From a virus, in the IMG/VR virus record IMGVR_UViG_3300002460_002708, positions 1 through 28,312 of that record: 28,312 nucleotides of DNA. One strand, written 5' to 3'. A program made the position numbers and the translations under genes. Within the stretch, counting starts at the first letter, position 1, and the number at the start of each line of letters is the position of its first letter. Below, one piece after another: positions 1,792 to 28,312 of the stretch. The notes below the pieces were generated by a model. That model was given only the letters and a program-made list of their open reading frames with translations. It did not search any database and was not told the DNA's origin.

Positions 1792-2172
1792 TTATATTTT
1801 TGGGTTCCTATTAACTTGGGCGTGTAAATGGTATTCATTACCTTTTACTTTATGATACACCACTACCCTTTGTTTTCCATCAGAATTAGAAATAGCTCCT
1901 AAATAACCAACCCTTCTATTCATAAAATCAATAAATTCTTCGATATCTTCCTTGCCCCAATTCCTGACTGAAATATCAAATGCTCTACCTTCTCTGTGAG
2001 TGTCTGTTTGTCTTCCAATTGCTTCATCAAAAATAGAAGTTATTAGGCATGGTAAATTGCTTAAATTACAGAAATAAGAGGCATAGCCAAGAACAATGAT
2101 TAGTGCTGGATTCATTTTTTGTAAATCCGTGAGTGCAACATTATTTTTGAACTCAAAATTTAATTTGTCCAT
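1792..2172 (-). CDS. M15-type peptidoglycan peptidase (endolysin)
   Basis: A 126-residue protein with the zinc-peptidase signature of the M15/VanY-like family. TDTHREGRAFDI lies at residues 56-67 (zinc ligands H59 and D66 in the SxHxxGxAxD-type motif), and HLH at 115-117 supplies the third histidine. Such enzymes cut peptide cross-bridges in peptidoglycan and often serve as phage endolysins. There is no signal peptide, so export would need a holin; the nearby single-TM protein is a candidate. The ATG overlaps the end of the NeuB-type gene by 13 bases, so the cassette boundary sits directly on this gene's start. The family call is fairly sure; the exact bond cleaved is not shown. Confidence 0.75.
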   Translation of the reverse strand: MDKLNFEFKNNVALTDLQKMNPALIIVLGYASYFCNLSNLPCLITSIFDEAIGRQTDTHREGRAFDISVRNWGKEDIEEFIDFMNRRVGYLGAISNSDGKQRVVVYHKVKGNEYHLHAQVNRNPKI

Positions 2173-2969
2173 CTTCTAGCATATTTTTCTATTAATTGCC
2201 TGCCTTCAATTGGTTCTGGAGCAATCATTATCCCTAGATTAAGTTTATTGATTTTTTCTTCTGGTTGCAACCGATCAAAATCGCACAATGATTTCAATTG
2301 ATTGAAGTCAATAGAAACAGGGCCATCCTTGGTCTCATTTCTATTTTTTATTGTAAAATGCTTTTCAATAAAAGCGGCACCTAAAGCAGAGGCATATTTT
2401 GTGGGTAAATCCCAATCTTTATGAAGTGGGTCAGTATGGTCGGACCACCCTACAGGTGATTTCCTCCATTTGCTTTTTATGGCCATCATGCGGAGGAGGT
2501 TTGCCTCATAGGGAGAGTGTGGGTATTTACTTACGCAGTGCATAACACATTCAACCGGCTCTACTCTAGTTATTTCATTCACGTCCCACCCACCAGTAGA
2601 CACAATAACATTAAAGCCAATCCCTTTTGCTAGTTTGATTAGTGCGGTATCTGTGGCCTGAGGAGAAGCTATTTTGACCCATCTGAAACCAATATTAGCG
2701 AGGATGGGGAGATATTCTTTTTTATTTATTGTTGTGATAGGAATTAAATCATATTTTTTGCATGTATCGAAAAATTCTATGTGCTCATTCCATGTGAGTT
2801 CTAGCTTTTTTAATCGTTGATAATCACTCTCGAATTCTTCTGATAAATCTCGAGCAAAAAAAGTTTGTATCTTTGCACCCCAAGCACCAGCTTCAGCGGA
2901 GAGCTTAACCATTTCTTTAACTGTTTCGAGATCCCCTCCATGATTTTGGCATAGCTCAGATATGATCAA
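2160..2969 (-). CDS. neuB: NeuB-type nonulosonate synthase lacking SAF domain
   Basis: A 269-residue TIM-barrel protein of the NeuB family, whose members condense phosphoenolpyruvate with an N-acetyl-mannosamine-type sugar to make sialic, legionaminic or pseudaminic acid. Family landmarks: ISELCQNHGG at 3-12, AKIQTF at 32-37, KIAS at 99-102, STGG at 124-127, HCVSKYP at 144-150, GWSDHT at 174-179 (metal-binding His) and IEKHFT at 201-206. Usual members have about 340-350 residues with a C-terminal SAF/antifreeze-like domain that contributes an Arg to the partner's active site. This one stops at YARRWTN, just where that domain normally begins. The KIxSxE motif reads KIASPQ, so the usual Glu seems to be Gln. 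The start is TTG at 2969 with AGGAG six bases upstream; no in-frame ATG is nearby. Substrate is unproven. Confidence 0.85.
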   Translation of the reverse strand: MIISELCQNHGGDLETVKEMVKLSAEAGAWGAKIQTFFARDLSEEFESDYQRLKKLELTWNEHIEFFDTCKKYDLIPITTINKKEYLPILANIGFRWVKIASPQATDTALIKLAKGIGFNVIVSTGGWDVNEITRVEPVECVMHCVSKYPHSPYEANLLRMMAIKSKWRKSPVGWSDHTDPLHKDWDLPTKYASALGAAFIEKHFTIKNRNETKDGPVSIDFNQLKSLCDFDRLQPEEKINKLNLGIMIAPEPIEGRQLIEKYARRWTN

Positions 2970-3030
2970 AATAATCTCCTGATAAATTTATAAATAGATT
3001 TTATGATAAATATTATAAATTTAAAGAATG
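2970..3030. other. AT-rich spacer with short direct repeats before neuB
   Basis: This is the only gap between leftward genes inside the cassette. It is almost pure A+T and holds two similar words on the plus strand, GATAAATTTATAAA (about 2981-2994) and GATAAATATTATAAA (about 3005-3019). On the minus strand a TATAAT lies at 3017-3012 but lacks a good -35, so I do not call a promoter. The neuB ribosome site AGGAG is at 2980-2976. Confidence 0.4.
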
Positions 3031-5070: not shown

Positions 5071-6292
5071 ATCTTGATTCTCCTATATGATCGTGTGCAT
5101 TTTCTATTAGTGCTGGATAAACTAAAGACCCTTTTTTTGTAAAATTAATATCTTTTAAATGGTTTACAATATATTGAGCAGCTTTCCCTTTTCCATATAG
5201 ATAAGATCTCTCATATTTTTTAGCAATGAACTGATACTCCATCGCCTTAATAATATCTAATTTATTAATATTGTGGATATCAATAACATTCCATGAACGT
5301 TCTCTTAAGTTTTGTCTTAATCCAAGATTAATTGAAGGGACTCCCAAGTAAGAGCATTCTCTTATACCCACACTTGAATTCCCAATTACTAACCTTGCCT
5401 TCGCTAATCTTGTAAGGAAATTTTTAGGAGATTCATTTATTGCTTTTACAAATAATTCTTCATAATTACTTTTATATTCATCTAAAAGTCTGATTATTTC
5501 TTCTCTACCAGGATCAGGGTTTGGCCAGTACCAATAACATTTCACTTTGTTCTGAAGACAAAAATCCATAACTGCTTCAAGGACTATTTTTGTTTGTTCA
5601 TACTGCTCTTGAATTCTCTCTGTATCGGGATGGAAAATACATAAAAGATATTTCTCTTGGGTAACATTTGATGTTTTGATTGTACTTCTTTTTATTCTCC
5701 ATTCTCTAATTAAATCAAGACTAGGGCATCCAGTATTGAATACTCTTCCCCCATTTTCTCCCATCTTCTTCACATATTTTTTACTACAATCAGTTGAAAC
5801 AAAATGATAATCAGAAAGCTTGGTGACAGCATGTCTTACTTTTTCATCAATATTCCCAGTGACCTCACCACCTTGTAGGTGAATTATTGGGACATTCATA
5901 TATGCACATGCCATCGCAGTAGGGAGAGTTTCGAATCTGTCTGCCACAACAATGACAGCATCAAAATATCTCTTAGATAAAAACTCCCCAACATTATGAG
6001 TTATCATGGCAGCGATTTTAACCGAACCGAGTTCTGTATTTTCTTGCTTGTCTAATAATAATGAAACGATTTCTAATTGACGAAAATCTTCTCTGATGTA
6101 TTCTTCTGCTTTCCCAAATTTTTCTTCAAGCAATGATGAAGATAAAACCAAAGTTAATTCCATATTAGGGTGCTCAGAAATTTCTTTAATTAAAGAGTAA
6201 CAACGAGAATAAGTAGCTCTGTTAAATATAAAAAGACAAAACTTTTTATCTTTATTGTAAATGTCGTTAATTGTTTTTGTTTTTTCTATCAA
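5003..6292 (-). CDS. neuC: hydrolysing UDP-GlcNAc 2-epimerase (NeuC/LegG type)
   Basis: A roughly 429-residue enzyme of the hydrolysing UDP-N-acetylglucosamine 2-epimerase family, which releases UDP and makes ManNAc (NeuC) or the 2,4-diacetamido analogue (LegG). Motifs in order: ADRFETLPTAMA, IHLQGGEVTGNIDEKVRHAV, TKLSDYHFVST, GCPSLD, and VIGNSSVGIREC with LGVPSINLGLRQNLRER. The usual GDRxE reads ADRFE. A C-terminal tail of about 45 residues (from KKGSLVYPAL) extends past the usual end and overlaps the next gene. I chose the TTG at 6292 because AAGGTGG lies six bases upstream and the overlap with neuA falls to 26 bases. An ATG at 6316 or further upstream is possible but has no ribosome site. 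It supplies the NeuB substrate. Confidence 0.85.
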   Translation of the reverse strand: MIEKTKTINDIYNKDKKFCLFIFNRATYSRCYSLIKEISEHPNMELTLVLSSSLLEEKFGKAEEYIREDFRQLEIVSLLLDKQENTELGSVKIAAMITHNVGEFLSKRYFDAVIVVADRFETLPTAMACAYMNVPIIHLQGGEVTGNIDEKVRHAVTKLSDYHFVSTDCSKKYVKKMGENGGRVFNTGCPSLDLIREWRIKRSTIKTSNVTQEKYLLCIFHPDTERIQEQYEQTKIVLEAVMDFCLQNKVKCYWYWPNPDPGREEIIRLLDEYKSNYEELFVKAINESPKNFLTRLAKARLVIGNSSVGIRECSYLGVPSINLGLRQNLRERSWNVIDIHNINKLDIIKAMEYQFIAKKYERSYLYGKGKAAQYIVNHLKDINFTKKGSLVYPALIENAHDHIGESRFEKHRKIESRKIDKDFKLHHLA

Positions 6293-6953
6293 ACTCAACC
6301 ACCTTGGCAAATTCATAATCAATGGGTTTATCAATATTGATTGATGACCAATCATCCATTACATAGGCCTTACATGGCCATATATAGAAAGATTCATATT
6401 TAAGAAACTCTCCACACTTAAAAACATAAAAAACTCCATTTCTTAAATAGGCAGAAGGGAGATCTTGTTTATTTTTGAAATTAGTTCTTTTAAGAGGTCT
6501 CAAATTACCTTTTGAACCAATATGATAAATCCTTTGGTGATCCCCATAAGTATTGCGAACAGAAATTAAACTTTTAATATTATTTTCATATAATAACTGG
6601 TTTATTTCTTGAAAGTTTTTTATAGATCTGAATGGAGATGTTGGTTGGATTAACCACACCCAACTATCTTTATCTATAGCTGTTTCATTTATAACATCAG
6701 TGACAACATCCTTCATTAGAGCAGTATCAGAAGCTAAATTTTTCTTTCTTTTTAAATAAGTTATTTTACTCGTATTCTCTTGGTCTAAAAGACATTGGAT
6801 ATCAGTTGAAATAATTATTTTATCAAAAACTCCACTGTCTTTACAGATTCTAATAGCTCTTTCTGTTATATTTTCTCTGTTATTTATTTTAATAAGATTT
6901 TTGTTAATGATAGATTTACTTCCTGCTCTTGCAGGGATTATTGCTATATTCAA
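6267..6953 (-). CDS. neuA: CMP-nonulosonate cytidylyltransferase (NeuA type)
   Basis: A 228-residue nucleotidyltransferase of the CMP-sialic acid synthetase family. It joins CTP and a nonulosonic acid, giving the donor used by Maf. Visible motifs: NIAIIPARAGSKS at 2-14 with KNL following, IISTD near 47-51, LASDTALMKD (the ASDTA motif), WLIQPTSPFRS, LRNGVFYVF, and SINIDKPIDYE near the end. The last normally reads xxDIDxxxD with two metal-binding Asp; here the first is Asn. The start is TTG at 6953, since the family's N-terminus (M-N-I-A-I-I-P-A-R) begins right there, with GGGGAG close upstream. It overlaps the upstream methyltransferase stop as TTGA. The reaction is well supported; the exact sugar is not. 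Confidence 0.85.
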   Translation of the reverse strand: MNIAIIPARAGSKSIINKNLIKINNRENITERAIRICKDSGVFDKIIISTDIQCLLDQENTSKITYLKRKKNLASDTALMKDVVTDVINETAIDKDSWVWLIQPTSPFRSIKNFQEINQLLYENNIKSLISVRNTYGDHQRIYHIGSKGNLRPLKRTNFKNKQDLPSAYLRNGVFYVFKCGEFLKYESFYIWPCKAYVMDDWSSINIDKPIDYEFAKVVEFDRKNKNN

Positions 6954-7939: not shown

Positions 7940-8776
7940 ATGATATTAAATATAGCGAAAAAAACTCAAGGAGATAACGAATTTTATTCAAGATGGGAGG
8001 TTATTGGTCAAGTATTTAAGCATATCCCCCAGTTATCACAGTTAGCAAAAATCAAAATTCTTGTTGTCGATTTTAGAAGATCCATCACTGATGATTTCCT
8101 AATGCTATTCCCTAATCTTGAAGTAATTGCTTCAGCAACAACAGGACATACTCATCTCAAATTTAATAATGATAAAATAAAATTAATAACACTAAAAGGT
8201 GAACGTGATTTTCTTGATGGCATCACTTCAGCAGCAGAACATACCATCCATTTAATGTTTAAATTATTTAAAGAAGTCTCAAATCCTCCGATCAAATTGT
8301 CAAAAAAATCAATCGGTCTAATTGGCGGTTATGGGAGAGTAGCCACTCAAGTTTCAAGAATCTGCAAGTCACTAGATATGGATGTAAAAATATTTGATGT
8401 CGAACATAACAAATATTTTATGAATAGTATCATTAGGGATGTTGATGTTTTATCAATACACCTAGAAGAAAATAAAGATACAATCGGCCTCATCACTAGA
8501 GAGCATATTTATTCAATGAAAAAAACTGCCTTCATCATCAATACTGCCAGGCCTAGTCTTATTGATGAAAATGCACTTGAGCTAGCATTAGAAAATAATG
8601 TTATTGCTGGTGCAGCCATAGATTCGGATGATTCGATTCTTTATGGACGGAATATTAGAAATTTAATATTAACTAATCATGTTGGGGGACAGTCATTTGA
8701 AGATAGAATATCAACAGATCAATTTATTTGCGATAAAGTTAAGGATTGCTTCCAATCACTTCCCAGAAAACTTTAA
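7940..8776 (+). CDS. D-2-hydroxyacid dehydrogenase-like protein
   Basis: A 278-residue protein of the NAD-dependent D-isomer 2-hydroxyacid dehydrogenase family (3-phosphoglycerate dehydrogenase-like). SAAEHTIHLMF lies at 97-107. The dinucleotide site IGLIGGYGRVA is at 125-135, with an acidic residue in KIFDVE for NAD preference. NTARPSLIDE at 201-210 contains the presumed catalytic Arg204, and LTNHVGG at 244-250 contains His247. The usual TARG is TARP, and the region after AAIDS lacks a clear match to the normal catalytic Glu. It is also short (usual 310-330). It is the only plus-strand gene within the late block and overlaps the next gene tail-to-tail by 38 bases. Homologues occur in some bacterial surface-sugar clusters, so a role in making the sugar is plausible, but the substrate is unknown. 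Confidence 0.75.
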   Translation: MILNIAKKTQGDNEFYSRWEVIGQVFKHIPQLSQLAKIKILVVDFRRSITDDFLMLFPNLEVIASATTGHTHLKFNNDKIKLITLKGERDFLDGITSAAEHTIHLMFKLFKEVSNPPIKLSKKSIGLIGGYGRVATQVSRICKSLDMDVKIFDVEHNKYFMNSIIRDVDVLSIHLEENKDTIGLITREHIYSMKKTAFIINTARPSLIDENALELALENNVIAGAAIDSDDSILYGRNIRNLILTNHVGGQSFEDRISTDQFICDKVKDCFQSLPRKL

Positions 8777-14996: not shown

Positions 14997-15503
14997 TCAT
15001 ATATAACTAGAATAACCAAAAACTGGAACAACAGCATGAAAATAATATCTAATACTAGTAAGAGAGAGAGGCTGTACCCCTGCCCCAACATAGGATGGTG
15101 TAATAGCACCATGATATTCTATCATGACACCACTATGGCCAACAACAACGACTCTCCCATTCGCTACTAAATCAGTAGCAGAATTATTTAAAATATATGC
15201 CTCACCAACAGTGTTATTCACCCCCACCGTCAACTTTGATTGATCGGCAAAAATACCATTGGGAAATCCAAAAATATAATTCCCACTACCAGCAGAACCA
15301 GCAAGCCCGCCATTACGAAATGAATAAAATATTTCCATAGAATCACCAATAAACCTATAAGAAGCGACATCCGCAATAGGAACAGACCCCTTAGATGGGT
15401 TTTGATTATTAGTACCGTCACCGCTAATAACCATATTAAAATTTTTCCAACCAGTATTTTTGGAGTTAATTTTTTTTATATAATTTAATACTTGTATCGA
15501 CAT
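14997..15503 (-). CDS. adhesin-like virion protein, paralogue C
   Basis: A 168-residue protein, third of three adjacent related genes. Shared features: a short helical lead ending in a Trp (NTGWKNFNM), a Thr/Pro/Lys/Gly turn (NPSKGSV), SYRFIGDSMEIFYSF, then GSGNYIFGFPNGI and a strand-rich remainder. This W ... PxKG ... SYRxxGxxxxxxYxF ... GxGxYxFxxPxG layout is typical of small jelly-roll receptor-binding or fibre-tip domains in phages. It begins with ATG six bases after its neighbour. It may be a tail adhesin or a head/collar decoration, as it sits beside the nozzle gene. Confidence 0.6.
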   Translation of the reverse strand: MSIQVLNYIKKINSKNTGWKNFNMVISGDGTNNQNPSKGSVPIADVASYRFIGDSMEIFYSFRNGGLAGSAGSGNYIFGFPNGIFADQSKLTVGVNNTVGEAYILNNSATDLVANGRVVVVGHSGVMIEYHGAITPSYVGAGVQPLSLTSIRYYFHAVVPVFGYSSYI

Positions 15504-15509
15504 AAACCC

Positions 15510-15995
15510 TCAGTAAATAGGGAAATTTGCCCTAATAGTAAAACCTACAGAAGCATTCGCTAATCCAAAAAGAGCTGCACCAGCAGAGACCACTGGGCCA
15601 GTCTGCGTAACATTCAAGACTAAACCATTGTTCGTCCTTAGTGTTACAAAACCATAATAAACATTCCCTGCAACCTCAGCGCTACAAGTCCCTACAACAC
15701 TACCGTCTCCATAATCTGTTATTGAGCCAGAGATTATTACAAAATTCTGATTTGCAACAATCCCTCCAGGAGTGGAAAACAAATAGTCTCCAGTCCCACT
15801 AGCACCAGCACCAGATTGCTGATATTGATAAAATAGTTCAACACTGCCATTATAAATACGATAAGAACCTTTATCTATAGAAGTGGCACCTTTTGTTGGG
15901 TCAGCAATACTTCCAGTAATGCCACATTGGTAAGGTCTCCATTTCCCTGATTTAAAATTAAATTTATTTAAAAAATTAATATCTTTTAGAGACAT
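15510..15995 (-). CDS. adhesin-like virion protein, paralogue B
   Basis: A 161-residue protein, the middle member of the triplet. It has KSGKWRPYQCGITGS, then DPTKGATSIDKGSYRIYNGSVELFYQY, then GTGDYLFSTPGGI, in the same order and spacing as its neighbours. The second half has diverged (GSITDYGDGSVVGTCSAEVAG) and carries two Cys. The ATG overlaps the stop of paralogue A at one base. A jelly-roll adhesin or decoration function is inferred. The sequence differences between copies lie mostly in the C-terminal half, where receptor contact would be expected. Confidence 0.6.
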   Translation of the reverse strand: MSLKDINFLNKFNFKSGKWRPYQCGITGSIADPTKGATSIDKGSYRIYNGSVELFYQYQQSGAGASGTGDYLFSTPGGIVANQNFVIISGSITDYGDGSVVGTCSAEVAGNVYYGFVTLRTNNGLVLNVTQTGPVVSAGAALFGLANASVGFTIRANFPIY

Positions 15996-16483
15996 TAAAT
16001 ATAACTCCTGAACTCTTTTATAGGGACTGTCACCGAAAAATCGATTCTTGCAGTTGTATCAAGATTAGCGTTAGTCTGTCCTACTAATGCTCCACTAACA
16101 CCACCAGAAAATGTATGAAGAGATACACCACAAAAAACCCCAGTATGAATAAAGGCATGGCCAAGAGTAATGGTGCTACTAAAAACATGGTGTACAGTCC
16201 CGACATAAAATCTATTAATAGTCGGATCAATAAAAGAAGTATCTATATGCCAATTATTGGGAAATCTAAAAATATAAGTCCCAGTACCAGCAGCCCCAGC
16301 GACAGTAGTCCTTAATGTGTATGTGATATCAATTAAATTTCCTCTTTGTTTATAATAAGATTTTTCTGTAGTTGTCCCTTTTGTCGGAGCAGTCCCAGTA
16401 CTATCAATCCTCATCTCAAAACTTTTCCAGTTTTGGTTTGATTCGCTATATTTTAATATTTGATTTGAAATCTTAAGAGACAC
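15995..16483 (-). CDS. adhesin-like virion protein, paralogue A
   Basis: A 162-residue protein, first of the triplet, beginning with GTG at 16483. It contains NQNWKSFEM, TAPTKGTTTEKSYYKQRGN, LIDITYTLRT and GTGTYIFRFPNNW, matching the layout of the two following genes. It ends FRSYI, very like the GYSSYI end of paralogue C, so A and C may be the closer pair. The strands after the core differ (VGTVHHVFSSTITLGHAFIHTG, His-rich). As with the others, a fibre-tip or decoration role is inferred. Confidence 0.6.
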   Translation of the reverse strand: MSLKISNQILKYSESNQNWKSFEMRIDSTGTAPTKGTTTEKSYYKQRGNLIDITYTLRTTVAGAAGTGTYIFRFPNNWHIDTSFIDPTINRFYVGTVHHVFSSTITLGHAFIHTGVFCGVSLHTFSGGVSGALVGQTNANLDTTARIDFSVTVPIKEFRSYI

Positions 16484-19203: not shown

Positions 19204-20463
19204 TTAAAGATCAATTTTAATGTCTCTAATCATTAATGTCTTCTTAGGATTATCATTAAGAGCTAAATTTTTGTATGCTCTAATAAATGCCTCAAAAGCA
19301 TCCTGGTTAGAAACTCTAGAAAGAATTGCTCCATCAGCATCAGCAAATTTGAAATCAGAAAGAGTAAACATTTTTATTGCATCTCTTCTTCCAACAAACA
19401 AACTGTTATAAGGAGCTTGACGATCTTTAACCAATGGAACCCCATTATAAGTTAAAGAACTCATCCCAGCATTGAACTCTGGAGAGTTGTAACGTCGATC
19501 TGCTGCAACGCTTTCTAAAAATGCTCTGATTGTATCATGATGGCCCCAAATGACATCAGGCTCAACACCAGATTGAGCAGAAATTGTGTCAAACGCAGTT
19601 TGCATTAAGTTCCCATCAACAATTCTTTCAACACCACTGTTCCCTAAAATATTAGCGTTCCATGCGGAAACAGAAGCTCTGTTGATATTCTGAACAGAAG
19701 ATCCAAAAAATGCATTTGAACCCCACATATTGGCCTGAGTATAAACATCGACCAATGCCTGAAGTCCCAACATCTCAATTGAACTACCACCAGCACCTCT
19801 GTTGAAAACAAAAGTTTCACACTGAGAAACTGAGACAGTTGAATCAGAAATTGTAATTGTATCAGTAGTTGTTGCAGGGTTTGTTGAGAGAGCAACACTT
19901 ACAACTGTTTGACTGGAAGCTAGTGCAGTAGGAGAAGCTACAGTCCCGAAATCGAGCAATTGAGATTGGTAGACGTAACGTGCTCCAGGTTGACCCGGCT
20001 CAGCATATCTATTATACACTGCAATAGAGGTACTAGATGCGCCAGCAGTTCCCACTTGAGCAATACGGCCATCTCCTGTTCCCCATGTTTGACGTCCAAG
20101 GTCATTGATAAGATCTGAAGTTACACCTTTCATCTCTGTTTCCATCGCCATTGCAAAAGCATTTTTACCTGCTTCAATTACTGGCCCAGAAACTTGAATT
20201 CTTCCATACTGATAAGTAGCAGTTACCCTTGCTTCTTGATAAGCTTGGTTCCCAGCAGTTGGGAGTGTCCCCCCTTCAGCTCTGGCCCCTACCCCAGGGT
20301 TTCTTGCTGTATGAACAGGAAAACGAACATGACGGCCTGCCCACATACGGTCAGATTCATCAAACATCTTAAATGCCATAACTTCGTTGTTAATAGTTTC
20401 ACGGATGGCACCCTCGTAAAACTCTTTTAAAGCTTGATCATAGTTTGTTAAATTTTGAACCAT
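19204..20463 (-). CDS. major capsid protein (HK97-like)
   Basis: A 419-residue protein. Features of a phage major capsid protein: N-arm helices (YDQALKEFYEGAIRETINNEV), then WAGRHVRFPVHTARNPGVGARAEGG, ATYQYGRIQVSGPVIEAGKNAFAMAMETEMKG and LINDLGRQTWGTGDG. Later comes DVIWGHHDTIRAFLESVAADRRY and a C-terminal SRVSNQDAFEAFIRAYKNLAL. This 'r-hvxfpvh-x-rn-x-gxgar-xegxxlp' type is widespread in podoviruses and marine phages. It follows the scaffold gene with a strong GAGGAG ribosome site five bases from the ATG, fitting high expression. Its base composition looks visibly less AT-rich than its neighbours, as often seen for abundant capsid proteins. Confidence 0.85.
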   Translation of the reverse strand: MVQNLTNYDQALKEFYEGAIRETINNEVMAFKMFDESDRMWAGRHVRFPVHTARNPGVGARAEGGTLPTAGNQAYQEARVTATYQYGRIQVSGPVIEAGKNAFAMAMETEMKGVTSDLINDLGRQTWGTGDGRIAQVGTAGASSTSIAVYNRYAEPGQPGARYVYQSQLLDFGTVASPTALASSQTVVSVALSTNPATTTDTITISDSTVSVSQCETFVFNRGAGGSSIEMLGLQALVDVYTQANMWGSNAFFGSSVQNINRASVSAWNANILGNSGVERIVDGNLMQTAFDTISAQSGVEPDVIWGHHDTIRAFLESVAADRRYNSPEFNAGMSSLTYNGVPLVKDRQAPYNSLFVGRRDAIKMFTLSDFKFADADGAILSRVSNQDAFEAFIRAYKNLALNDNPKKTLMIRDIKIDL

Positions 20464-21318: not shown

Positions 21319-23334
21319 TCAAGCACCCTGTGGGCCTACATTACCCATCGCCCCTTCTGGGACTGTTGGGCCTTCTGGTCTTCCTACTGCATTCTGATTT
21401 TGTTGTTCAGTAGCCCTCCCTTTGTTGGGTAGAGATTGTACCAAAAATTGCATATGGGCCTGCAATACTGCTAATGCCAATTGCTTCCGATCTTCTTCTA
21501 GTCGTAAAAACTCAGGGGTTTTAATCCAATCGCTCATGACTCTAAAATATGCCATATGATCTTGATACGGGAGAATTTGTGGTTCTTTCCCTTTTTTGAT
21601 TTCTGTTATGTCCATCCATACTTGGTCATCAGCATTTTCAATTTTTTCAATGATCTCATCAAAATTCCCAAATCTAAAGGCATTAAGGAATGTAGTTGGG
21701 TCAGAAATAATTCTTCTATCCCATAGATCTAGTAATCTTTGCTGTTTCCCACCTTTAAATTCAGGGAACATTGATTCAACTTCAATATGGACGTCAGTAT
21801 GGTGCCTAAAATCAGCATTACTCATCCATTCTGAGCCCACTTTCCCATTATCCCCCAGGATTTGGATCTTTCTTTTTTCATTGTATTCTTGATCCATAAG
21901 CAAAAGTTGTTGGTTGGCGACAACTCTCATTGCACTGGCAAGTTTTCTAATCATGGGGTTTAAAATTTCATCAGATTGTTCTGCTATAATTTGTAAAGCG
22001 ACACCAGCGGTTACGTTTGGAGGAGGAGCAACGCTCGCTTCTCTTTGTCCTGCTACATCCCTGAAATCAGAAATTAATTCTTGCGCCATTTGCACAGCAT
22101 AATTAGGGAGAGCAGCGAGTTGCGCTTGATGGGGTTCAGTCACTGCGGAATTATATTCTACAACTTCTGATTCTTCATCGTTTAAGGCATCTTCTTGTAG
22201 CTGTGCCCCTTTTGGGACCATCCACTTTCCGTTTGCCATAAGGTAGATATTTTTAAGCTTTTTCTGTCTTAATCTATTGTAAGCTCGCTGAATAGAAGTG
22301 AGTCTTTCAATCGTGCTCTGACCCCAAAAATGAAATCCATCAGATCTTTCAGAAAATTTAGCATAAGGATAAATATTATCACCGTAATCATTGGGAAATT
22401 CTCCTAGATAAGCAACTTGGTCTCCTGCAACAACACAAACAACCCCATTCTCATATTGAGAATTTGGTCTCATCCAAAAAATTTTGACCAAAACTTCAGA
22501 ATTAATTGAATCACGAACGCTGTTAGCGGCACTCCCAAGATGAGCAGATATAGGACTAGAAAGCCTACTGATGATTTTTTCATACTCTGTCCTTTCATCC
22601 CCACATGCTTTATCTATTTTATCTTTCAAATGGGGATACATTAATTCTATTTCTGATACACTTTTAAACGATCTCTCAATTAACCATGGTTGGTCTTTAA
22701 TTTCTGTAATATTGTCGTCACCATTTATAATAGAAAAAGATGATAATGGGGTTGATTCTACTTCTCCTAAAAATATTTTCTCAGTTTCAATCCCCTCACT
22801 ATTTGTGAAAATTTCTCCACTCTCAGACTTGGGGACAGTGATAAAATCTCCTGCTAATGGGTTCCATATGGTTCTAATGAAAGAAGATCCAGTAATAAGC
22901 CCCAAAACAATATATTTGTCATAGGTATTTTCGAGATCAATTTTTCTCCACAAATAAACCAATGATTTATCTGCTGATTTGGCTGCGTTTTTATCAATTT
23001 CATCGTTCCCATTTGGAATAACTCGTGGAGCAGGTCTATTTTTGGTTAATTTGGCATGACGAGATTCGATGAAAGAGCCAATTCTATTAATCGTGAGGGG
23101 TCTGGTCCCATCACTAGGGATAGTTATTTGATTGGTACGATAATTAAATAAAAGATTCTGGTAACCAAGGTAATAAGACAGGTTGACTGTCCACTGAAAT
23201 TCGTATTTAAGCCTTCTTTGGATGCCATCGTCATGGAGGCGATTAACATACATCCCCCATTCTTCTTTGGTTTTAGGAAGATCCCCCTGGCGTATTTTTT
23301 TAGGGACTTTAACTTGTTTCTTTTTGTCTAACAC
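21319..23334 (-). CDS. portal protein
   Basis: A 671-residue protein starting at GTG (23334) with AGGA six bases upstream. It resembles podovirus (P22-type) portals. N-terminal LPKTKEEWGMYVNRLHDDGIQ is followed by WTVNLSYYLGYQN, then PLTINRIGSFIESRHAKLTKNRPAPRVIP, and LVYLWRKIDLENTYDKYIVLGLITGSSFIRTIW. A central segment has FHFWGQSTIERLTSIQRAYNRLRQKKLKN, then GVALQIIAEQSDEILNPMIRKLASAM. The C-terminal tail is Gln/Pro/Gly-rich. It forms the ring through which DNA enters and leaves. It lies between terminase and scaffold, as expected. Confidence 0.85.
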   Translation of the reverse strand: MLDKKKQVKVPKKIRQGDLPKTKEEWGMYVNRLHDDGIQRRLKYEFQWTVNLSYYLGYQNLLFNYRTNQITIPSDGTRPLTINRIGSFIESRHAKLTKNRPAPRVIPNGNDEIDKNAAKSADKSLVYLWRKIDLENTYDKYIVLGLITGSSFIRTIWNPLAGDFITVPKSESGEIFTNSEGIETEKIFLGEVESTPLSSFSIINGDDNITEIKDQPWLIERSFKSVSEIELMYPHLKDKIDKACGDERTEYEKIISRLSSPISAHLGSAANSVRDSINSEVLVKIFWMRPNSQYENGVVCVVAGDQVAYLGEFPNDYGDNIYPYAKFSERSDGFHFWGQSTIERLTSIQRAYNRLRQKKLKNIYLMANGKWMVPKGAQLQEDALNDEESEVVEYNSAVTEPHQAQLAALPNYAVQMAQELISDFRDVAGQREASVAPPPNVTAGVALQIIAEQSDEILNPMIRKLASAMRVVANQQLLLMDQEYNEKRKIQILGDNGKVGSEWMSNADFRHHTDVHIEVESMFPEFKGGKQQRLLDLWDRRIISDPTTFLNAFRFGNFDEIIEKIENADDQVWMDITEIKKGKEPQILPYQDHMAYFRVMSDWIKTPEFLRLEEDRKQLALAVLQAHMQFLVQSLPNKGRATEQQNQNAVGRPEGPTVPEGAMGNVGPQGA

Positions 23335-23357
23335 TATTCATCCTTGAATAATTGTTA

Positions 23358-23549
23358 TTATAATGGAAATTCTTCTTTTATGGAAGGAAGCTTGCTTTTA
23401 AGTGACTTATTCTCAAGCTCAGCGAGAGCATATTCCTGATAATTCCTGGACATTAATCTATTAATTAAGTCCTTAGTTAAAATATAATTCTTAATTTCAA
23501 TAAAAACAATAAGACACAGCAAAAAAATAATAACAATAAGTGTTTCCAT
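23358..23549 (-). CDS. small single-TM protein between terminase and portal
   Basis: A 63-residue protein with a hydrophobic helix at about residues 3-18 (TLIVIIFLLCLIVFIE), then a charged helical tail (LINRLMSRNYQEYALAELEN). It starts in a TAATG overlap with the large terminase gene. Small membrane proteins are sometimes coded between packaging genes, but I do not recognise this one. It could be a holin-like, superinfection-exclusion or membrane-tethering protein. The coupled start supports that it is a real gene. Confidence 0.55.
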   Translation of the reverse strand: METLIVIIFLLCLIVFIEIKNYILTKDLINRLMSRNYQEYALAELENKSLKSKLPSIKEEFPL

Positions 23550-25030
23550 TAAATATCTCCATAAACACGTTTAATTTTTCTTTTTTTATCATAATTTTTT
23601 AAATCTTTCCAAACCCTCATTTCATTTTGAGTCAATCCCTTGTCATAAACAACTTGTAGTGAACTATCTGGCCTCATGTCACTAGGGAAAACGATATCTA
23701 CTTGGCTTTTAAGGGCATCTAATAAATCATCATGCTGGAGATTGGGATGAGTTGTAATCTGATGGTATAACTCAGTGTGCTCTTTCTTGATAAAAATCCT
23801 GCCTTCATGGAAAATTGGCTGTAAAGATCTAATCCTTGTACCTTTTGATATCCGAGTATTAGTCGTTACTTCTTTCAATGGGAAATAAAAGTCTCTTTTT
23901 TCCATTTCCTCAAAGAGTGAATGCTTCAAAAATTTTTCTAGAGCAAATTTTTCCATCGCAACACACATCATGGGTGAATATTTATTAACAAGATCAAAAA
24001 TGAGTACAATAAGTTCTGAAGGCTCACATCTTTTTTGTATGGCCTCACAGATATACCATTTCCCATCATAGTCAACTCCATTAACTATGATTCCTGAAAA
24101 ATCTGCACGGGATTTCATTGATATTGCAGGATCTAATGTCAAAAAATAGATAAGTCCTTTTGGTATTTCTTCAAAAAATTTGACTTCGAGGGCCTTAAAG
24201 GTGCACATATCCGACGAAACTGCTCTGTTGAGGTATTGGCAGTTGAAAATATATTCGCCCTGCGTCTTACGCATCTGCTCTAAAAAATCTTTGGTTAAAA
24301 CTTCTGGCATTAAAAGTTTTCCACTATCATCTTGTGCTTGTCTTACAAACGAATCAACGTTGTCAAATTCTGGGCCATCAGGGTCTAATAACCATGAATA
24401 GAGTTCATAAAATCCCCAACGAGTCCCAATAACTATGATTTCTCCATCAGGCTCTAAAATAGAAAGAAGAAGCTTGTAGTATTCAATTGTTTTTTCAACT
24501 TGCTCAGGAGAGTTGATGTTGTTCCGACTTACTACGTCATCTAAAATAATGTAATCAAAATGTAGTCCTACTATAGTACCTTTCTCTAAAGAAGATGCCA
24601 TAATCGTAGGCTCTTTTTTAACTTGGTTTCTAGTAGAGACGATGAATTCACCTTCTTTCCATGTATTGTTCTTGTTTACCCAATCTCCAAAAATAGTCCT
24701 AAATTTTACATTCTCCTCAAAATGGGTTTTTATCTCTTTGGCAAAACGAATGGCATTTCTTTGAGTTTCAGAAGCAATAAGGACCCTTAGATTGGGATTT
24801 TTGGTTATCTTATGGAGGGTTTTCCCTACTGTCACTACGGACGATTTGTATGAACCTCTAGGCATTAAGATTAGTTTGGTTCTCTTTTTTGACTTTTCTA
24901 TGAAATTTAAAAGATCCCGATGAGGGTTGGGATGTAATTTATTATAATTTAAAACATTTTTAATAAAATAATAAGAATCATTTCTCGATTTATCTTTTAG
25001 CCTTTCTACCTGGTTTTGGTAATCACTCAT
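23549..25030 (-). CDS. terL: terminase large subunit
   Basis: A 493-residue DNA-packaging motor. The ATPase part shows MPRGSYKSS at 56-64 (Walker A variant), IILDD at 161-165 (Walker B with catalytic acid region), and VIGTRW at 200-205. The nuclease part has LTLDPAIS (first Asp at 300), an acid around VAMEKF, and QHDDLLDA at 432-439. Length and motif order are normal for phage terminases. It overlaps the small-subunit gene by eight bases, and its stop is joined to the next gene by TAATG. Identification is firm. Confidence 0.93.
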   Translation of the reverse strand: MSDYQNQVERLKDKSRNDSYYFIKNVLNYNKLHPNPHRDLLNFIEKSKKRTKLILMPRGSYKSSVVTVGKTLHKITKNPNLRVLIASETQRNAIRFAKEIKTHFEENVKFRTIFGDWVNKNNTWKEGEFIVSTRNQVKKEPTIMASSLEKGTIVGLHFDYIILDDVVSRNNINSPEQVEKTIEYYKLLLSILEPDGEIIVIGTRWGFYELYSWLLDPDGPEFDNVDSFVRQAQDDSGKLLMPEVLTKDFLEQMRKTQGEYIFNCQYLNRAVSSDMCTFKALEVKFFEEIPKGLIYFLTLDPAISMKSRADFSGIIVNGVDYDGKWYICEAIQKRCEPSELIVLIFDLVNKYSPMMCVAMEKFALEKFLKHSLFEEMEKRDFYFPLKEVTTNTRISKGTRIRSLQPIFHEGRIFIKKEHTELYHQITTHPNLQHDDLLDALKSQVDIVFPSDMRPDSSLQVVYDKGLTQNEMRVWKDLKNYDKKRKIKRVYGDI

Positions 25031-25487
25031 CTTTGAATAATTCGGTTAATTTTTTTGCCTTCTCAAGCTCACTATCACCAGACCCCTTATCACTGAAAAT
25101 ATCAATGATGGTTTTAATAGCAGCAAGCTTTGTCTTGTAATCTACTACAGAATACACAGTCCCCTTTTTATCAACCTTTTGCTCTTGAGCACTAAGGCAT
25201 TCCTTTAAATGAGAAGCAATTGTAGCAAAACTTATCCCTTCATCTTTTAAAGATTCTTTTAAATCTTTATTAGGAATAGTGATGCTATCCTTCTTCTCTT
25301 TTGAAATACCAGACTCAGAAATGGCCCTCTCTAAGTTCCCATGTTCAATAAGCTTTTTTATAAGCTGCCTTTGATAAGGCTCTCTATTATTAAATTTATC
25401 AAAATTTTCTTGTACTAATATCTCATTAGCAAAAGGAGCACGAGCAAATAAAATAGGTTTTGGGTTATCCTCTTCTTCATGCTGCAT
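25023..25487 (-). CDS. terS: terminase small subunit
   Basis: A 154-residue protein from the ATG at 25487, preceded by AAAGGAG at six bases. A start at 25535 would add 16 residues but overlap the dehydrogenase gene by 59 bases and has no ribosome site. LIKKLIEHGNLERAISESGI is a helix-turn-helix-like DNA-binding region. The following helices and YSVVDYKTKLAAIKTIIDIF near the end match small terminase subunits that recognise viral DNA and dock on the large subunit. It directly precedes terL, which supports the call. Confidence 0.7.
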   Translation of the reverse strand: MQHEEEDNPKPILFARAPFANEILVQENFDKFNNREPYQRQLIKKLIEHGNLERAISESGISKEKKDSITIPNKDLKESLKDEGISFATIASHLKECLSAQEQKVDKKGTVYSVVDYKTKLAAIKTIIDIFSDKGSGDSELEKAKKLTELFKDE

Positions 25488-26277
25488 CGGCCACTCCTTT
25501 AGCGAGAGAATGTCTTCTCTTTTTATTAGACTCAAACGCAGCTCTTAAAGTAGGGATTTCTAAATCTTCAGTCACAGATAATAATGCTCCAAAGTCTTTA
25601 GGAAAACACGTCCCCCCAAACCCAAACTCTCCATCTGGCCCAGGGACTTGAGTATGTTTTAAATTAAGCCATCCAGTAATAGAAGAAACTTCCTTTATCA
25701 ATTTAGAATAATCAACTTCAAATTTTTGGCAAACAGAATGCAATTCATTAAGAACAGAAATTTTTGAAGCAAAATAAACGTTGTGCATATATTTAATCAT
25801 TTCTGCTTCCACTGGTAGTAAAATTTTAATATTGCAATCAAAAAGTGTGTGATAAAGCTTAATGACTTTACTGATATCTATTTTATACCCACTGCCAATA
25901 ATAACATCCTTTTGCTTAAGAAGATCACTCTCAGCGGTTTTGTGAGATAGGAATTCTGGGTTATTTATAATTGTTAACCCTATAAATTCTCTTGATAATG
26001 AATCAGTAGTCCCAGGAAGAATTGTACTCTTGATAACAACAATCCCTTTATAATTCATATCTTTTAAGCTTTTAAGAGTAGAAGTGATTGCTACTAAGGA
26101 TTGCTTCCCATTAACCGTGGGAGTGGGTAAACAAAGAAAACATATATCAGTTTTTTTTATGTCATTAATACTTGACCTTTCTTTAATATCATAACCGATA
26201 GTAGAAAATTTTCTGGAAAAAACTTTGAATAGAGCTCTCCCGACAACTCCCCTATGGCCCATTATCCCGATTTTCAT
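25477..26277 (-). CDS. short UDP-sugar 6-dehydrogenase-like protein
   Basis: A 266-residue protein of the UDP-glucose/GDP-mannose dehydrogenase family, which oxidises a nucleotide sugar C6 to a carboxylate with NAD. Motifs: GHRGVVG at 7-13 (NAD site), CLPTPT at 49-54, STILPGTT at 84-91, NPEFL at 106-110, AEMIKYMHNVYFASKISVLNE at 158-178 (catalytic Lys162 and Asn166) and FGFGGTCFPKD with Cys224. Full family members have about 390-440 residues. Here the C-terminal UDP-binding domain is absent and the frame ends soon after the catalytic cysteine. Similar short forms may work as a core or use another partner. It sits before terS with an 11-base overlap, apart from the sugar cassette, and may modify the same or another sugar. 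Confidence 0.8.
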   Translation of the reverse strand: MKIGIMGHRGVVGRALFKVFSRKFSTIGYDIKERSSINDIKKTDICFLCLPTPTVNGKQSLVAITSTLKSLKDMNYKGIVVIKSTILPGTTDSLSREFIGLTIINNPEFLSHKTAESDLLKQKDVIIGSGYKIDISKVIKLYHTLFDCNIKILLPVEAEMIKYMHNVYFASKISVLNELHSVCQKFEVDYSKLIKEVSSITGWLNLKHTQVPGPDGEFGFGGTCFPKDFGALLSVTEDLEIPTLRAAFESNKKRRHSLAKGVADAA

Positions 26278-26491
26278 TTTTTAATCCTTTTATAAGTTTG
26301 ATATTGGATCTGATTGTTTCTTTTTCTCTTTGTTTAAAAAATGCTTTCATAAAAGGCGAGAGTCTTGTTAGGTGATTTTGTCTATGGATAGCATGTGTTC
26401 CTAATTCTGATTGCATCTGGGCATGTTTATATTTTAACAAAATATTTTGTGACCTTTGCCACCAAGAATGACGAACTTTGTCAAGTTTCAT
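26252..26491 (-). CDS. hypothetical basic protein, about 79 aa
   Basis: A small, strongly basic, helix-prone protein (KVRHSWWQRSQNILLKYKHAQMQ; later FFKQREKETIRSNIKLIKG). The ATG at 26491 gives an 11-base overlap with the preceding gene, similar to other junctions here. An ATG at 26515 is also in frame and would give 87 residues but has no ribosome site. No domain is recognised. Its place before the dehydrogenase and terminases may hint at packaging or membrane work, but that is weak. Confidence 0.5.
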   Translation of the reverse strand: MKLDKVRHSWWQRSQNILLKYKHAQMQSELGTHAIHRQNHLTRLSPFMKAFFKQREKETIRSNIKLIKGLKNENRDNGP

Positions 26492-26690
26492 CTTTCTTTT
26501 GATCTTTTCCAGCATTTATTTTTTTTATTTGTTCTAGGAGAAATTCGTCTTGAATTTTTTTATAAAGAGATTCTCTATAAGATGACCATGCCTTTTTGAT
26601 TATCCAAGTGAATTGGTAAATATCTACGATCGATCCTAAAAGAAGGATTATAACACCGACTCTCTCCCATCCTTGGAGGTTTTCCCACAT
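26481..26690 (-). CDS. small single-TM protein, 69 aa
   Basis: A 69-residue protein with one hydrophobic helix at about residues 10-30 (RVGVIILLLGSIVDIYQFTW). A charged amphipathic C-terminal half follows (SYRESLYKKIQDEFLLEQIKK). It starts four bases after the regulator gene with GAGAG upstream. I do not recognise it; holin-like or membrane-signalling roles are both possible. It is distinct from the other two single-TM proteins in this window. Confidence 0.55.
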   Translation of the reverse strand: MWENLQGWERVGVIILLLGSIVDIYQFTWIIKKAWSSYRESLYKKIQDEFLLEQIKKINAGKDQKKDET

Positions 26691-26693
26691 TAA

Positions 26694-26963
26694 TCAACTC
26701 TCGTAATATTTCTTTCTAATATCCCTTGATCCATTTTTAATTTCAAAGTACTGCCTAATGGCATTAAAGTGCAAACCTATTTGTCTCGACGCAGCATGGG
26801 TATTACCGTCATTTAATTCAAGGGCATAAATGTATGTCTCAGTTCTAAGAGCTTGGACAACATCTTTCCATTTGTTGCCACGCATACAAGTTCTTTTAGC
26901 GAGCTGTTTTATTAGCCTTTTAGTATCCACATCAAATTCTTCTAGTTCGGTGTTCTTTGTCAT
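26694..26963 (-). CDS. Fis-type helix-turn-helix DNA-binding protein
   Basis: An 89-residue protein, first in the leftward late block. Residues 45-74 (YIYALELNDGNTHAASRQIGLHFNAIRQYFE region) follow the Fis-type pattern 'ALexnxGNxxxAAxxLGIxxxxLxxxx', a helix-turn-helix. The first half is charged and helical and may mediate dimerisation. The gene lies next to a candidate promoter and the repeat-rich intergenic region, so it could control late transcription or nearby early genes. The predicted transcript would start only about five bases before the ATG and no ribosome site is visible, so it may be translated leaderless. The domain call is fairly good; the regulatory target is inference. Confidence 0.65.
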   Translation of the reverse strand: MTKNTELEEFDVDTKRLIKQLAKRTCMRGNKWKDVVQALRTETYIYALELNDGNTHAASRQIGLHFNAIRQYFEIKNGSRDIRKKYYES

Positions 26964-26974
26964 AAATATTTATA

Positions 26975-27003
26975 ATTATTGTCGGATAAGAAAGAAGAGT
27001 CAA
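26975..27003 (-). promoter_or_regulatory. candidate late-block promoter with A-tract
   Basis: On the minus strand TTGACT (27003-26998), a 17-base spacer and AATAAT (26980-26975) match sigma-70 spacing well. A run of nine or more A residues directly upstream of the -35 could act as an UP element. It faces the regulator gene at 26963. Confidence 0.5.
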
Positions 27004-27036
27004 TTTTTTTTTGGGAAAATTTATGAGGTGGTTAAT

Positions 27037-27072
27037 ATGAATAAGAAAGACCCAGGGCACAACCCGGGGTAA
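27037..27072 (+). CDS. possible 11-aa leader peptide
   Basis: GAGGTGG at 27025-27031 sits five bases before an ATG that opens MNKKDPGHNPG and then a TAA. It has an excellent ribosome site for so short a frame. No stem-loop typical of attenuation follows convincingly. It could be a leader peptide, the relic of a longer gene, or chance. Confidence 0.25.
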   Translation: MNKKDPGHNPG

Positions 27073-27175
27073 ATGCTGTAAGTTATTGATTTTAAAGGGG
27101 CTTGTGTGGTGTACCAGTGGTCACAACAAAAGGTATCTAATGTTGTGGGTCTAATAAAATCAACTACTTACGAAT

Positions 27176-27193
27176 GTGTCAAAACTTTGACAC
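27176..27193. promoter_or_regulatory. perfect palindromic operator-like site
   Basis: GTGTCAAAACTTTGACAC has two perfect 8-base arms around a 2-base centre, as for a dimeric repressor site. Its right half contains TTGACA (27187-27192), which has a TATTGG 17 bases downstream (27210-27215). A protein bound here could block a rightward promoter. Confidence 0.55.
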
Positions 27194-27224
27194 TTCTTTG
27201 GGGGACTCATATTGGCACAATTGT

Positions 27225-27346
27225 AGTACCATATAATACTATGCACAATAAGTTTTTGCTTATATTAGTATAAACACAGGACTGTGTAACTCTACGCAAT
27301 AATGTTCACTTATATTAGTACAAATATAGTACTATATAATGCTGTG
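27225..27346. repeat. degenerate tandem repeat, about 50 bp period
   Basis: Copies begin at 27225, 27278 and 27328 (the last is partial). The word CTTATATTAGTA is identical at 27259-27270 and 27309-27320, exactly 50 bases apart. The copy starts at 27225 and 27328 (AGTACYATATAATRCTRTG) agree at 16 of 19 bases. Each of these contains TATAAT. Indels of a few bases distinguish copies. Confidence 0.6.
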
Positions 27347-27455
27347 TTTGATTGTATCCTTTTTTCTCCATCTACCAATTTTCAGTTTTAGTAAACCAGA
27401 CAAATTTCTACATTTGTAATTATTACATACCAGTTTAAAAGAGAACATTTTAATG

Positions 27456-27483
27456 TTGACATGATCTTTATATATGCTAATAT
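27456..27483 (+). promoter_or_regulatory. strong rightward promoter (extended -10)
   Basis: TTGACA at 27456-27461, a 16-base spacer and TAATAT at 27478-27483, with TGC just before the -10 (extended -10 type). Transcription would begin near 27490 and lead into the gene at 27532. An ACATT-TT-AATGT inverted repeat (27446-27457) touches the -35. This is the best promoter match in the window. Confidence 0.7.
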
Positions 27484-27531
27484 GAATATATAAAGACTTG
27501 CAATTAAGCAAGATGAAAAGGAGTTATTTTT

Positions 27532-27741
27532 ATGATTAATCATAACGCTGATAAAATAAACAAAGCTTTAGGTTGTGAGATTTTTAATGTTTCAAATATT
27601 AAAAGACTTGAAATTGTTAAACGCTCTAAAAAGTATATTAAAGAAAATTTACTTGATGACCTTCTTGGTTATGACTGTAAAGGTACACCTAGGCTTTCAA
27701 AGTTTGTAAAAGAAATATTATTTGAGAGAGGTATAAAATGA
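27532..27741 (+). CDS. hypothetical early protein, 69 aa
   Basis: A 69-residue, Lys-rich, helical protein (start MINHNADKINKALGCEIFNV; later IKRLEIVKRSKKYIKENLL). It has AAGGAG eight bases before the ATG and lies about 40 bases after a strong promoter. Its stop overlaps the next ATG (ATGA). I recognise no domain. A small basic protein at the head of a rightward block would suit an early regulatory or host-takeover role, but that is from position only. Confidence 0.65.
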   Translation: MINHNADKINKALGCEIFNVSNIKRLEIVKRSKKYIKENLLDDLLGYDCKGTPRLSKFVKEILFERGIK

Positions 27742-28103
27742 GCAACTACGACAAAGATCTAATTAAACAGTTCGGTAACACTTTAAGACTTGTAAGACAT
27801 GACACTTCTCCCACTGGTTATCCAGCTTATATTCAATGTCAGCTAGGTAAAAAACCAAAAGATATGGGAATGACGGCAATGGATTACTCTAATTTTATTT
27901 ATCGCAATTTTGTTCAAAGTTTTGTATCTACTCCAGAATATTTAGGCAGAGGCAAGACTACCAGTATTAGAATATTTTTAAAGTGGGAAGATATAGAACC
28001 TATGCGCTTAAATATCTTAAAATATTTTGGAAAAGAAAGAATGATAAAAGTTGAAAAATATCTACCATTTGAATTTCAAAGCATACCTTTGGGCCTAGAG
28101 TGA
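27738..28103 (+). CDS. hypothetical early protein, 121 aa
   Basis: A 121-residue protein beginning MSNYDKDLIKQFGNTLRLVRHD. It contains an aromatic-rich middle (MTAMDYSNFIYRNFVQSFV) and ends near VEKYLPFEFQSIPLGLE. No known motif is visible. It is translated with the preceding gene through an ATGA overlap and leads closely to the next frame, so all three likely form one early operon. Confidence 0.65.
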   Translation: MSNYDKDLIKQFGNTLRLVRHDTSPTGYPAYIQCQLGKKPKDMGMTAMDYSNFIYRNFVQSFVSTPEYLGRGKTTSIRIFLKWEDIEPMRLNILKYFGKERMIKVEKYLPFEFQSIPLGLE

Positions 28104-28106
28104 GCG

Positions 28107-28312
28107 ATGAATATAAATCAAATATGGCAAGCTATTGATAAAGGTAAGAAAGTTTATTGGTCACATAAAGGATATGAAATAATACCTGTAAAATCAGAAT
28201 TAAATGAATACTCAAAACTTTCTTACCGTAACGGATACGCTTTAAGGTGTATTTGTGTTGAAAATTACTTTGGTAGTTTGGTTATTAAATATGATCTTAA
28301 ATATTGTTATAT
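28107..28312 (+). CDS. hypothetical protein, cut by right edge
   Basis: An ATG at 28107, four bases after the preceding stop and with a GAGTGAG-like site in that stop, opens a frame that stays open for 68 codons to the window end. It starts MNINQIWQAIDKGKKVYWSHKGYEI. The WQAIDxGKxVYWxHxGYEI phrase is typical of small phage proteins of unknown function in early regions, but I cannot name a family. The C-terminus is outside the window. Confidence 0.6.
   Translation, partial: MNINQIWQAIDKGKKVYWSHKGYEIIPVKSELNEYSKLSYRNGYALRCICVENYFGSLVIKYDLKYCY

Follow-up and report, generated by a model that had tools for sequence, protein, structure and literature searches.

Enzymes of the UDP-glucose/GDP-mannose dehydrogenase family normally have three domains, and the UDP-glucose 6-dehydrogenases (UGDHs) work by way of a thiohemiacetal and a thioester, with two hydride transfers. 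The two-domain β-hydroxyacid dehydrogenases are not known to carry the Cys motif of the UGDH type. In human UGDH, according to PMC3184952, the UDP moiety is bound by the C-terminal Rossmann domain, Arg260 reaches across the dimer to bond the glucose in the other protomer (for Arg260 see also PMC7056728) and residues 265–280 wrap the UDP-glucose.

Phages also carry such genes. Virus-genome papers count UDP-glucose 6-dehydrogenase among phage metabolic genes (e.g. PMC7029224). The UDP-glucose dehydrogenase of Campylobacter phage IBB_35 has been proposed to lower capsule synthesis, and over-expression of UGDH in E. coli is cited as decreasing K5 polysaccharide; the available part of that paper does not mention the length of the phage protein (PMC3322345). 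Short proteins named UDP-glucose dehydrogenase stand in the databases for Campylobacter phage CP220 (256 aa), the Kyanoviridae phage C48C1 (319 aa) and Microbacterium phage Fireman (262 aa). Nowhere in the literature surveyed, which took in few subscription journals, did we find the short forms treated as a class of their own.

How does the gene considered here compare? It lies in a window of 28,312 nucleotides, the whole stretch of viral DNA that was analysed (IMG/VR record IMGVR_UViG_3300002460_002708). There it forms part of a dense minus-strand run of three small ORFs, the dehydrogenase, a putative small terminase gene (terS), the large terminase gene (terL), a small ORF, and the portal, putative scaffold and major head protein genes:

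26252–26963, minus strand: three small ORFs (87, 69 and 89 aa) upstream of the dehydrogenase, in the same gene run
26275–26290, minus strand: Shine–Dalgarno-like AAAGGA, 7 nt 5' of the ATG, and the ATG of the dehydrogenase
25477–26277, minus strand: two-domain nucleotide-sugar-dehydrogenase-like gene, 266 aa, ATG start, NAD domain plus central domain
25023–25487, minus strand: putative terS, assigned by position, with orthologues in contigs L007 and L001
23549–25030, minus strand: large terminase subunit, terL (phrog_38, E 8.4e-76)
21319–23334, minus strand: portal protein (phrog_156, E 2.5e-39)
19204–20463, minus strand: major head protein (phrog_14242, E 2.8e-66)

Pfam and PHROGs gave no family match for the three small upstream ORFs and none for the putative terS, whose name comes from its position alone and whose predicted model is poor (pLDDT 52.5). 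The best start of the putative terS is the ATG at 25487, preceded by AAAGGAG at 25494–25500, with an 11-nt overlap of the 3' end of the dehydrogenase. Shine–Dalgarno-like matches across the whole window show no excess over shuffles, and the promoter-like sites in 23000–28312 (19, against 22.9 in shuffles) give no signal.

Judged by its sequence, this is a real gene, a complete two-domain relative of UDP-glucose dehydrogenase. The first-pass annotation had assigned it to the UDP-glucose/GDP-mannose dehydrogenase family, and Pfam agrees, placing two domains above their gathering scores: PF03721, the NAD domain (residues 38–130, E 1.5e-13, 51.2 bits against a cut-off of 27), and PF00984, the central domain (residues 157–252, E 1.7e-17, 63.7 bits against 25.4). 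The annotation had also held that the C-terminal nucleotide-binding domain is missing, and this too is borne out: the UDP-binding domain PF03720 was found neither in the protein by Pfam nor in a six-frame search of the window record at E 0.01. The DNA 3' of the stop codon is that of the putative terS and terL, and the protein ends 38 residues past its FGFGGTCFPKD motif. Against NCBIfam TIGR03026 it scores 139 bits, below the curated cut-off of 189.8, and matches model positions 68–306 of 413 only. It falls outside the three-domain definition and is for this reason not classed here among the canonical UDP-glucose dehydrogenases, although its mode of action is probably theirs.

Might the third domain be encoded elsewhere? 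A frameshift, which the annotation had offered as a refutation, and a C-terminal domain supplied in trans were both rejected, PF03720 being absent from every frame of the window record and from 39 non-redundant records of viral relatives. It was likewise absent from the 18 records searched first, a list that overlaps the other. The same search found PF03720 in 14 of 14 control genomes, 13 of them above cut-off, but it missed the full-length protein of Synechococcus phage Bellamy, and very divergent copies could therefore escape it. The Bellamy gene (L005, 3980–5218) is a 412-aa CDS for a full-length UDP-glucose dehydrogenase without a PF03720 match, so that its C-terminal part must be divergent. 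The protein lengths given below are independent of this model.

The annotation had called the gene truncated. To what extent is the short form peculiar to the window? Our viral sample is the best 80 of at least 592 loci and our cellular sample (GTDB) the best 80 of at least 579, that is, the loci closest to the window protein rather than a random draw; the scans for both used the GFGGxC stretch as search pattern. All of these best 80 viral relatives are short, ending 27–81 residues past the GFGGxC(F/L)PKD motif and reaching at most 309 aa; in two of them the 5' end lies beyond the contig edge. Among the best 80 cellular relatives, 69 are full length, by which we mean at least 130 residues after the motif (one, L126, runs off its contig), and 11 are short. 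These 11 come from SAR86, Marinimicrobia and candidate phyla, measure 266–322 aa, share 30–36% identity with the window protein and have a VPGxDG loop in seven cases. Gene length was read in seven of the 35 phage records matched: CP220 and C48C1 are short, and Bellamy, AG-345-E15, WO, Yong-DA and Kuja full length. Since the short form recurs in many viruses and in some bacteria, it is an established variant and not a broken gene, and ‘truncated’ is misleading.

Two IMG/VR contigs, L007 and L001, share both gene order and dehydrogenase with the window. Their dehydrogenases are 50% (L007) and 41% (L001) identical to that of the window, and their portal proteins 64% and 57%. Within this trio pN is 0.34–0.41 and pS 0.74–0.86, with synonymous sites near saturation; pN well below pS indicates purifying selection.

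The main tree has 77 rows, from each of which the active-site loop was removed: 39 of the 80 viral relatives (below 60% mutual identity), all 11 short cellular forms, 23 of the 69 full-length proteins (every third), the trio and C48C1. CP220, on account of its long branch, and the full-length phage proteins L005 and L006 were excluded. A single branch with support of 100/100 divides the short forms from the full-length cellular ones, and the trio makes up a branch of its own (100/99). In an earlier tree of 80 rows the short forms were again grouped (SH-aLRT 91), viral and cellular ones intermingled, and L005 and L006 were their long-branched sister group (94). A single loss of the C-terminal domain would be the simplest reading of these trees, which is not to say that they prove it.

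Are the catalytic residues retained, as the annotation had maintained for the NAD site, the Lys/Asn pair and the Cys motif? The relevant features of the window protein are:

26239–26259, minus strand: dinucleotide-binding loop G7-HR-G10-VV-G13, from sequence comparison
25954–25956, minus strand: E108 of the PEFL motif, invariant (73/73)
25780–25794, minus strand: catalytic Lys/Asn pair K162 and N166, invariant (73/73)
25606–25671, minus strand: active-site loop W203–C224, spacing 21, with W203 where most relatives have Arg
25630–25656, minus strand: H208-x-x-V-P-G-P-D-G216 within that loop, from the sequence
25594–25626, minus strand: FGFGGTCFPKD motif with catalytic C224, K227 and D228, from the sequence and alignment A4

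Alignment A4 has 73 rows, the trio and 70 of the best 80 viral loci, chosen by hand (L013, L031, L038, L042, L047, L048, L075, L076, L082 and L084 were left out). All 73 proteins contain PF00984 and PF03721, none contains PF03720, and all match phrog_9148, which is named UDP-glucose dehydrogenase. G7, G10, V12, G13, E108, K162, N166, C224, K227 and D228 are invariant throughout, so the three elements are indeed kept. The invariance of GFGGxCxPK is partly built in, because the scans used that stretch as a pattern; E108, N166 and D228 lie outside every scan pattern. The dinucleotide-binding loop is one residue longer in the window than in L001, CP220 and C48C1, and L007 reads as the window does.

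Were the gene the decaying remnant of a full-length one from a host, the absence of a third of the usual protein would be explained. We regard this as very improbable, contradicted as it is by the short length of all 80 of the best 80 viral relatives, by their single grouping on the tree, by the invariant active site, by a pN well below pS and by the failure to find a C-terminal domain; the homologues do not show the decay that the annotation had named as grounds for refutation.

How might a two-domain protein work? The AlphaFold2 model of the window protein (pLDDT 92.6, pTM 0.89; pLDDT 79 at residues 221–230) matches S. pyogenes UGDH 1dlj with a Z of 25.5 over 254 aligned residues (rmsd 2.1). 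With the three-domain UGDHs (S. pyogenes 1dlj, human 2q3e, Pyrobaculum 3vtf) it shares the N-terminal and central fold and the catalytic Glu, Lys, Asn, Cys and Asp; it differs from them in the absence of the C-terminal UDP-binding domain, in a loop to the Cys that is five residues longer and, in the window lineage, in a Trp for an Arg. The model also matches the two-domain 3-hydroxyisobutyrate dehydrogenase 5je8 (Z 19.5, 243 of 291 residues), from which we conclude that an enzyme with this fold can function with two domains. The two-domain β-hydroxyacid dehydrogenases, of which 5je8 is one, have the build and the fold of the window protein, but Pfam puts the latter in the UGDH domains. On sequence and model together we think it rather likely that the gene product is a complete and active enzyme of two domains, an NAD-dependent sugar 6-dehydrogenase within the UDP-glucose dehydrogenase superfamily.

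The active-site loop sets most of the short forms apart. In 68 of the 69 full-length proteins among the best 80 cellular relatives, the spacing from the Arg to the catalytic Cys is 16, the same as from Arg260 to Cys276 in human UGDH. It is 21 in 77 of the best 80 viral short forms, the remaining three having a Trp at 21, and in the 11 short cellular forms it is 21 (six), 20 (two) or 18 (three). Given the spacing of 16 in full-length proteins and the wrapping of UDP-glucose by human residues 265–280, the stretch that is lengthened in the short forms is the substrate-wrapping one. The extra residues are usually VPGPDG and follow a near-invariant His (69 of the 70 viral short forms of A4). C48C1 resembles the window in being short and in having a VPGxDG loop; L001 has lost part of the VPGPDG loop. 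CP220 and its relatives have two domains and the catalytic residues, as the window does; CP220, at about 29–31% identity, lacks the VPGPDG loop and has neither Arg nor Trp at the loop position. The gene of IBB_35 matches the window protein over the same stretch as does that of CP220. With no C-terminal domain, an H-x-x-V(PGPDG) loop and a place among the short forms, the window protein belongs to the two-domain subfamily as we define it here.

In the window protein the sugar-contacting Arg of the DxRIG motif, the equivalent of human Arg260, is absent and a Trp stands in its place. Throughout the trio T, W and N take the place of the D, R and G of DxRIG (giving TxWxN), whereas of the 70 other short forms of A4, 66 have the D, 66 the R and 63 the G; C48C1 keeps the Arg. 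Within the trio the Trp is at 21 in two members and one residue closer to the Cys in L001. A Trp at the Arg position occurs also in L015, L052 and L083, and the tree needs four Arg/Trp changes, of which well-supported branches impose no fewer than three. Since it has recurred in proteins whose catalytic residues do not vary, this change has the appearance of a switch in sugar preference, not of decay. We give some weight to an altered specificity brought about by the Trp in the sugar pocket, as the sequences suggest; the substrate would probably be an NDP-sugar, with shifted specificity.

What do the neighbouring genes tell us? Among the best 80 of at least 592 viral loci, a gene of the NAD-dependent epimerase/dehydratase type adjoins the dehydrogenase in 27, being found at −1 in 18 of 78 and at +1 in 9 of 77, and in no more than 7 of 74 at any of the remaining positions up to eight genes away. 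One member of this neighbour family was scanned with Pfam and 26 with NCBIfam. Adjacency to genes of this NDP-sugar-related type suggests an active enzyme. Other frequent viral neighbours are glycosyltransferases and a DegT aminotransferase; in C48C1 the dehydrogenase directly follows a nucleotide-sugar epimerase gene in a replication-gene context. Among the short cellular loci an epimerase-type gene is at −1 in 1 of 11. Ten neighbour genes from six of these loci were scanned: L091 has a glycosyltransferase and Wzz, L093 an epimerase, and L089, L092, L094 and L097 have APS kinase, CDP-alcohol phosphatidyltransferase, uvrC and SIS/CBS genes. No epimerase gene adjoins the dehydrogenase in any member of the trio. 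Such a neighbour accompanies 0 of 6 Trp forms and 27 of 77 others, a difference that is not significant (Fisher p 0.17). Radical SAM genes lie near the short dehydrogenase in L083 (6725–10147) and in CP220 (L003, 2916–3710 and 6294–7397).

Several points count against the reading as an active sugar 6-dehydrogenase: the absence of the UDP-binding domain, which makes an NDP-sugar no more than a probable substrate, the TIGR03026 score below its cut-off, the GFGGxCxPK invariance that is partly built in, the pLDDT of 79 at residues 221–230, the lack of an epimerase neighbour and the loss of D, R and G of DxRIG in the trio, the single short cellular locus of 11 with an epimerase-type gene at −1, and the mixed nature of the neighbour family. 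Most of its members are 4-epimerase-like, and some match best dTDP-glucose or GDP-mannose 4,6-dehydratase, enzymes that use no uronate. Might the short form then oxidize something else, such as a sugar on lipid, protein or DNA, or a small hydroxy acid? Stripped of the UDP-binding domain its active site would be more open, as in the two-domain β-hydroxyacid dehydrogenases, and the fit to 5je8, the Arg-to-Trp change in the window lineage and the radical SAM genes of L083 and CP220 are all in keeping with this. Yet the protein shares its Cys motif, K162 and N166 with the NDP-sugar 6-dehydrogenases, the UGDH match outscores that to the hydroxyisobutyrate enzyme, and NDP-sugar epimerase/dehydratase-type genes are neighbours in those 27 of the best 80 viral loci. 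We consider a substrate of this kind unlikely, if worth keeping in mind.

A phage enzyme of this sort might instead drain UDP-glucose and so lower host capsule synthesis, as proposed for IBB_35. The decrease in K5 polysaccharide, as cited in PMC3322345, is consistent with such diversion, and the related CP220 gene is short and the IBB_35 gene matches the same stretch; but the many short forms near epimerase/dehydratase and glycosyltransferase genes point to use of the product. Diversion is in our view a doubtful explanation.

If the preferred reading, a working NDP-sugar dehydrogenase, holds, why does the gene lie among packaging genes? The annotation had it directly before terS, and there it lies, with the proviso that terS is putative by position. 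The same is true of L001 and, apart from a small ORF overlapping the junction, of L007. Scanning with the portal protein yielded four loci, including the contigs of L007 and L001; the other two, L173 and L174, have no more than 720 and 1075 bases ahead of the portal, which is too little, so that the relatives in which the position can be tested number two. The annotation had proposed looking for the short form next to terminases in other phages; it is there in these two (2/2) and not in the other records with a detected terminase (0/6). In all six of the latter the terminase is about 17–117 kb from the dehydrogenase, and a general link is not supported. PF03237 found a terminase in 6 of the 39 non-redundant records, in one below cut-off; the model is insensitive and many of the records are incomplete, which leaves the other 33 uninformative. 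Around the CP220 gene, too, are tail, radical SAM and clamp-loader genes and not a terminase. From the six distant terminases, the packaging link looks like a trait of the window's phage group.

The protein might moonlight in packaging or head assembly or have a structural part there, its enzyme activity being incidental; this would suit the place directly before the putative terS in all three genomes and the overlap with it in the window. The catalytic residues are all kept, though, and the terminase is far away in the six other records, and we hold such a role to be quite improbable. Late co-expression is the simplest reading of the position. Residence in the packaging operon suggests late expression, with the virion or the cell surface as the target of the sugar modification.

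In L007 the large terminase (3111–5369, 752 aa) has an intein-like insertion of about 260 aa with Cys first, Asn last and then Cys.

The other sugar genes of the window (NeuB-, NeuC- and CMP-sugar-synthetase-like, 2160–6953) are more than 18 kb from the dehydrogenase, so the annotation was right to place it far from the sugar cassette. The annotation had also suggested that the enzyme may make an acidic sugar for the glycan of that cassette or may have been recruited to a different task; between these, the Arg-to-Trp change lends some weight only to an altered specificity. The minus-strand stretch 2160–6953 has NeuB, NeuC and PseF-like genes and, at 3031–5070, an MptE-like protein, presumably of the fold group of motility accessory factors; a phage-encoded nonulosonic acid pathway with a protein glycosyltransferase is possible. 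The NeuB-like synthase (2160–2969, minus strand) is itself short, at 269 aa with the Pfam NeuB domain only (residues 20–230). NeuB proteins usually have a further C-terminal domain, which may make this the second sugar enzyme of the phage to lack its usual C-terminal part. At 7940–8776, on the plus strand and opposite to its neighbours, is a 2-hydroxyacid dehydrogenase-like gene in which only the NAD domain was recognized. Three consecutive ORFs of about 165 aa whose starts and ends resemble one another (14997–16483, minus strand) may encode paralogous fibre or decoration proteins, and the relative L170 has an array of this kind (2740–4249).

We propose that the two-domain enzyme, its C-terminal domain lost once, would dimerize through the long central helix (residues 155–185) and hold NAD in the N-terminal domain. 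C224 would take the sugar C6 as thiohemiacetal and then thioester, two hydride transfers yielding a uronic acid. The longer H-x-x-VPGPDG loop may do some of the work of holding the substrate that fell to the UDP-binding domain before its loss. The product of many short forms is probably an NDP-uronate handed on to an epimerase encoded next door; for the window lineage, given the change from DxRIG to TxWxN, plain UDP-glucose is probably not the sugar accepted.

More speculatively, and with the odds against it, viruses may carry a separate two-domain class that shed the UDP-binding domain once and enlarged the loop, several lineages, that of the window included, then independently exchanging Arg for Trp and now oxidizing a different sugar, possibly bound to polymer or virion, in a late step tied to particle production. 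The best 80 of at least 592 viral relatives that were measured all lack the domain that binds UDP in the enzymes studied. If these short forms are active, the minimal NDP-sugar 6-dehydrogenase is smaller than has been thought, and the labels on viral genes need a test. If their substrate differs, they would be a new kind of glycan-modifying enzyme. The natural Arg and Trp forms make the choice of sugar directly testable.
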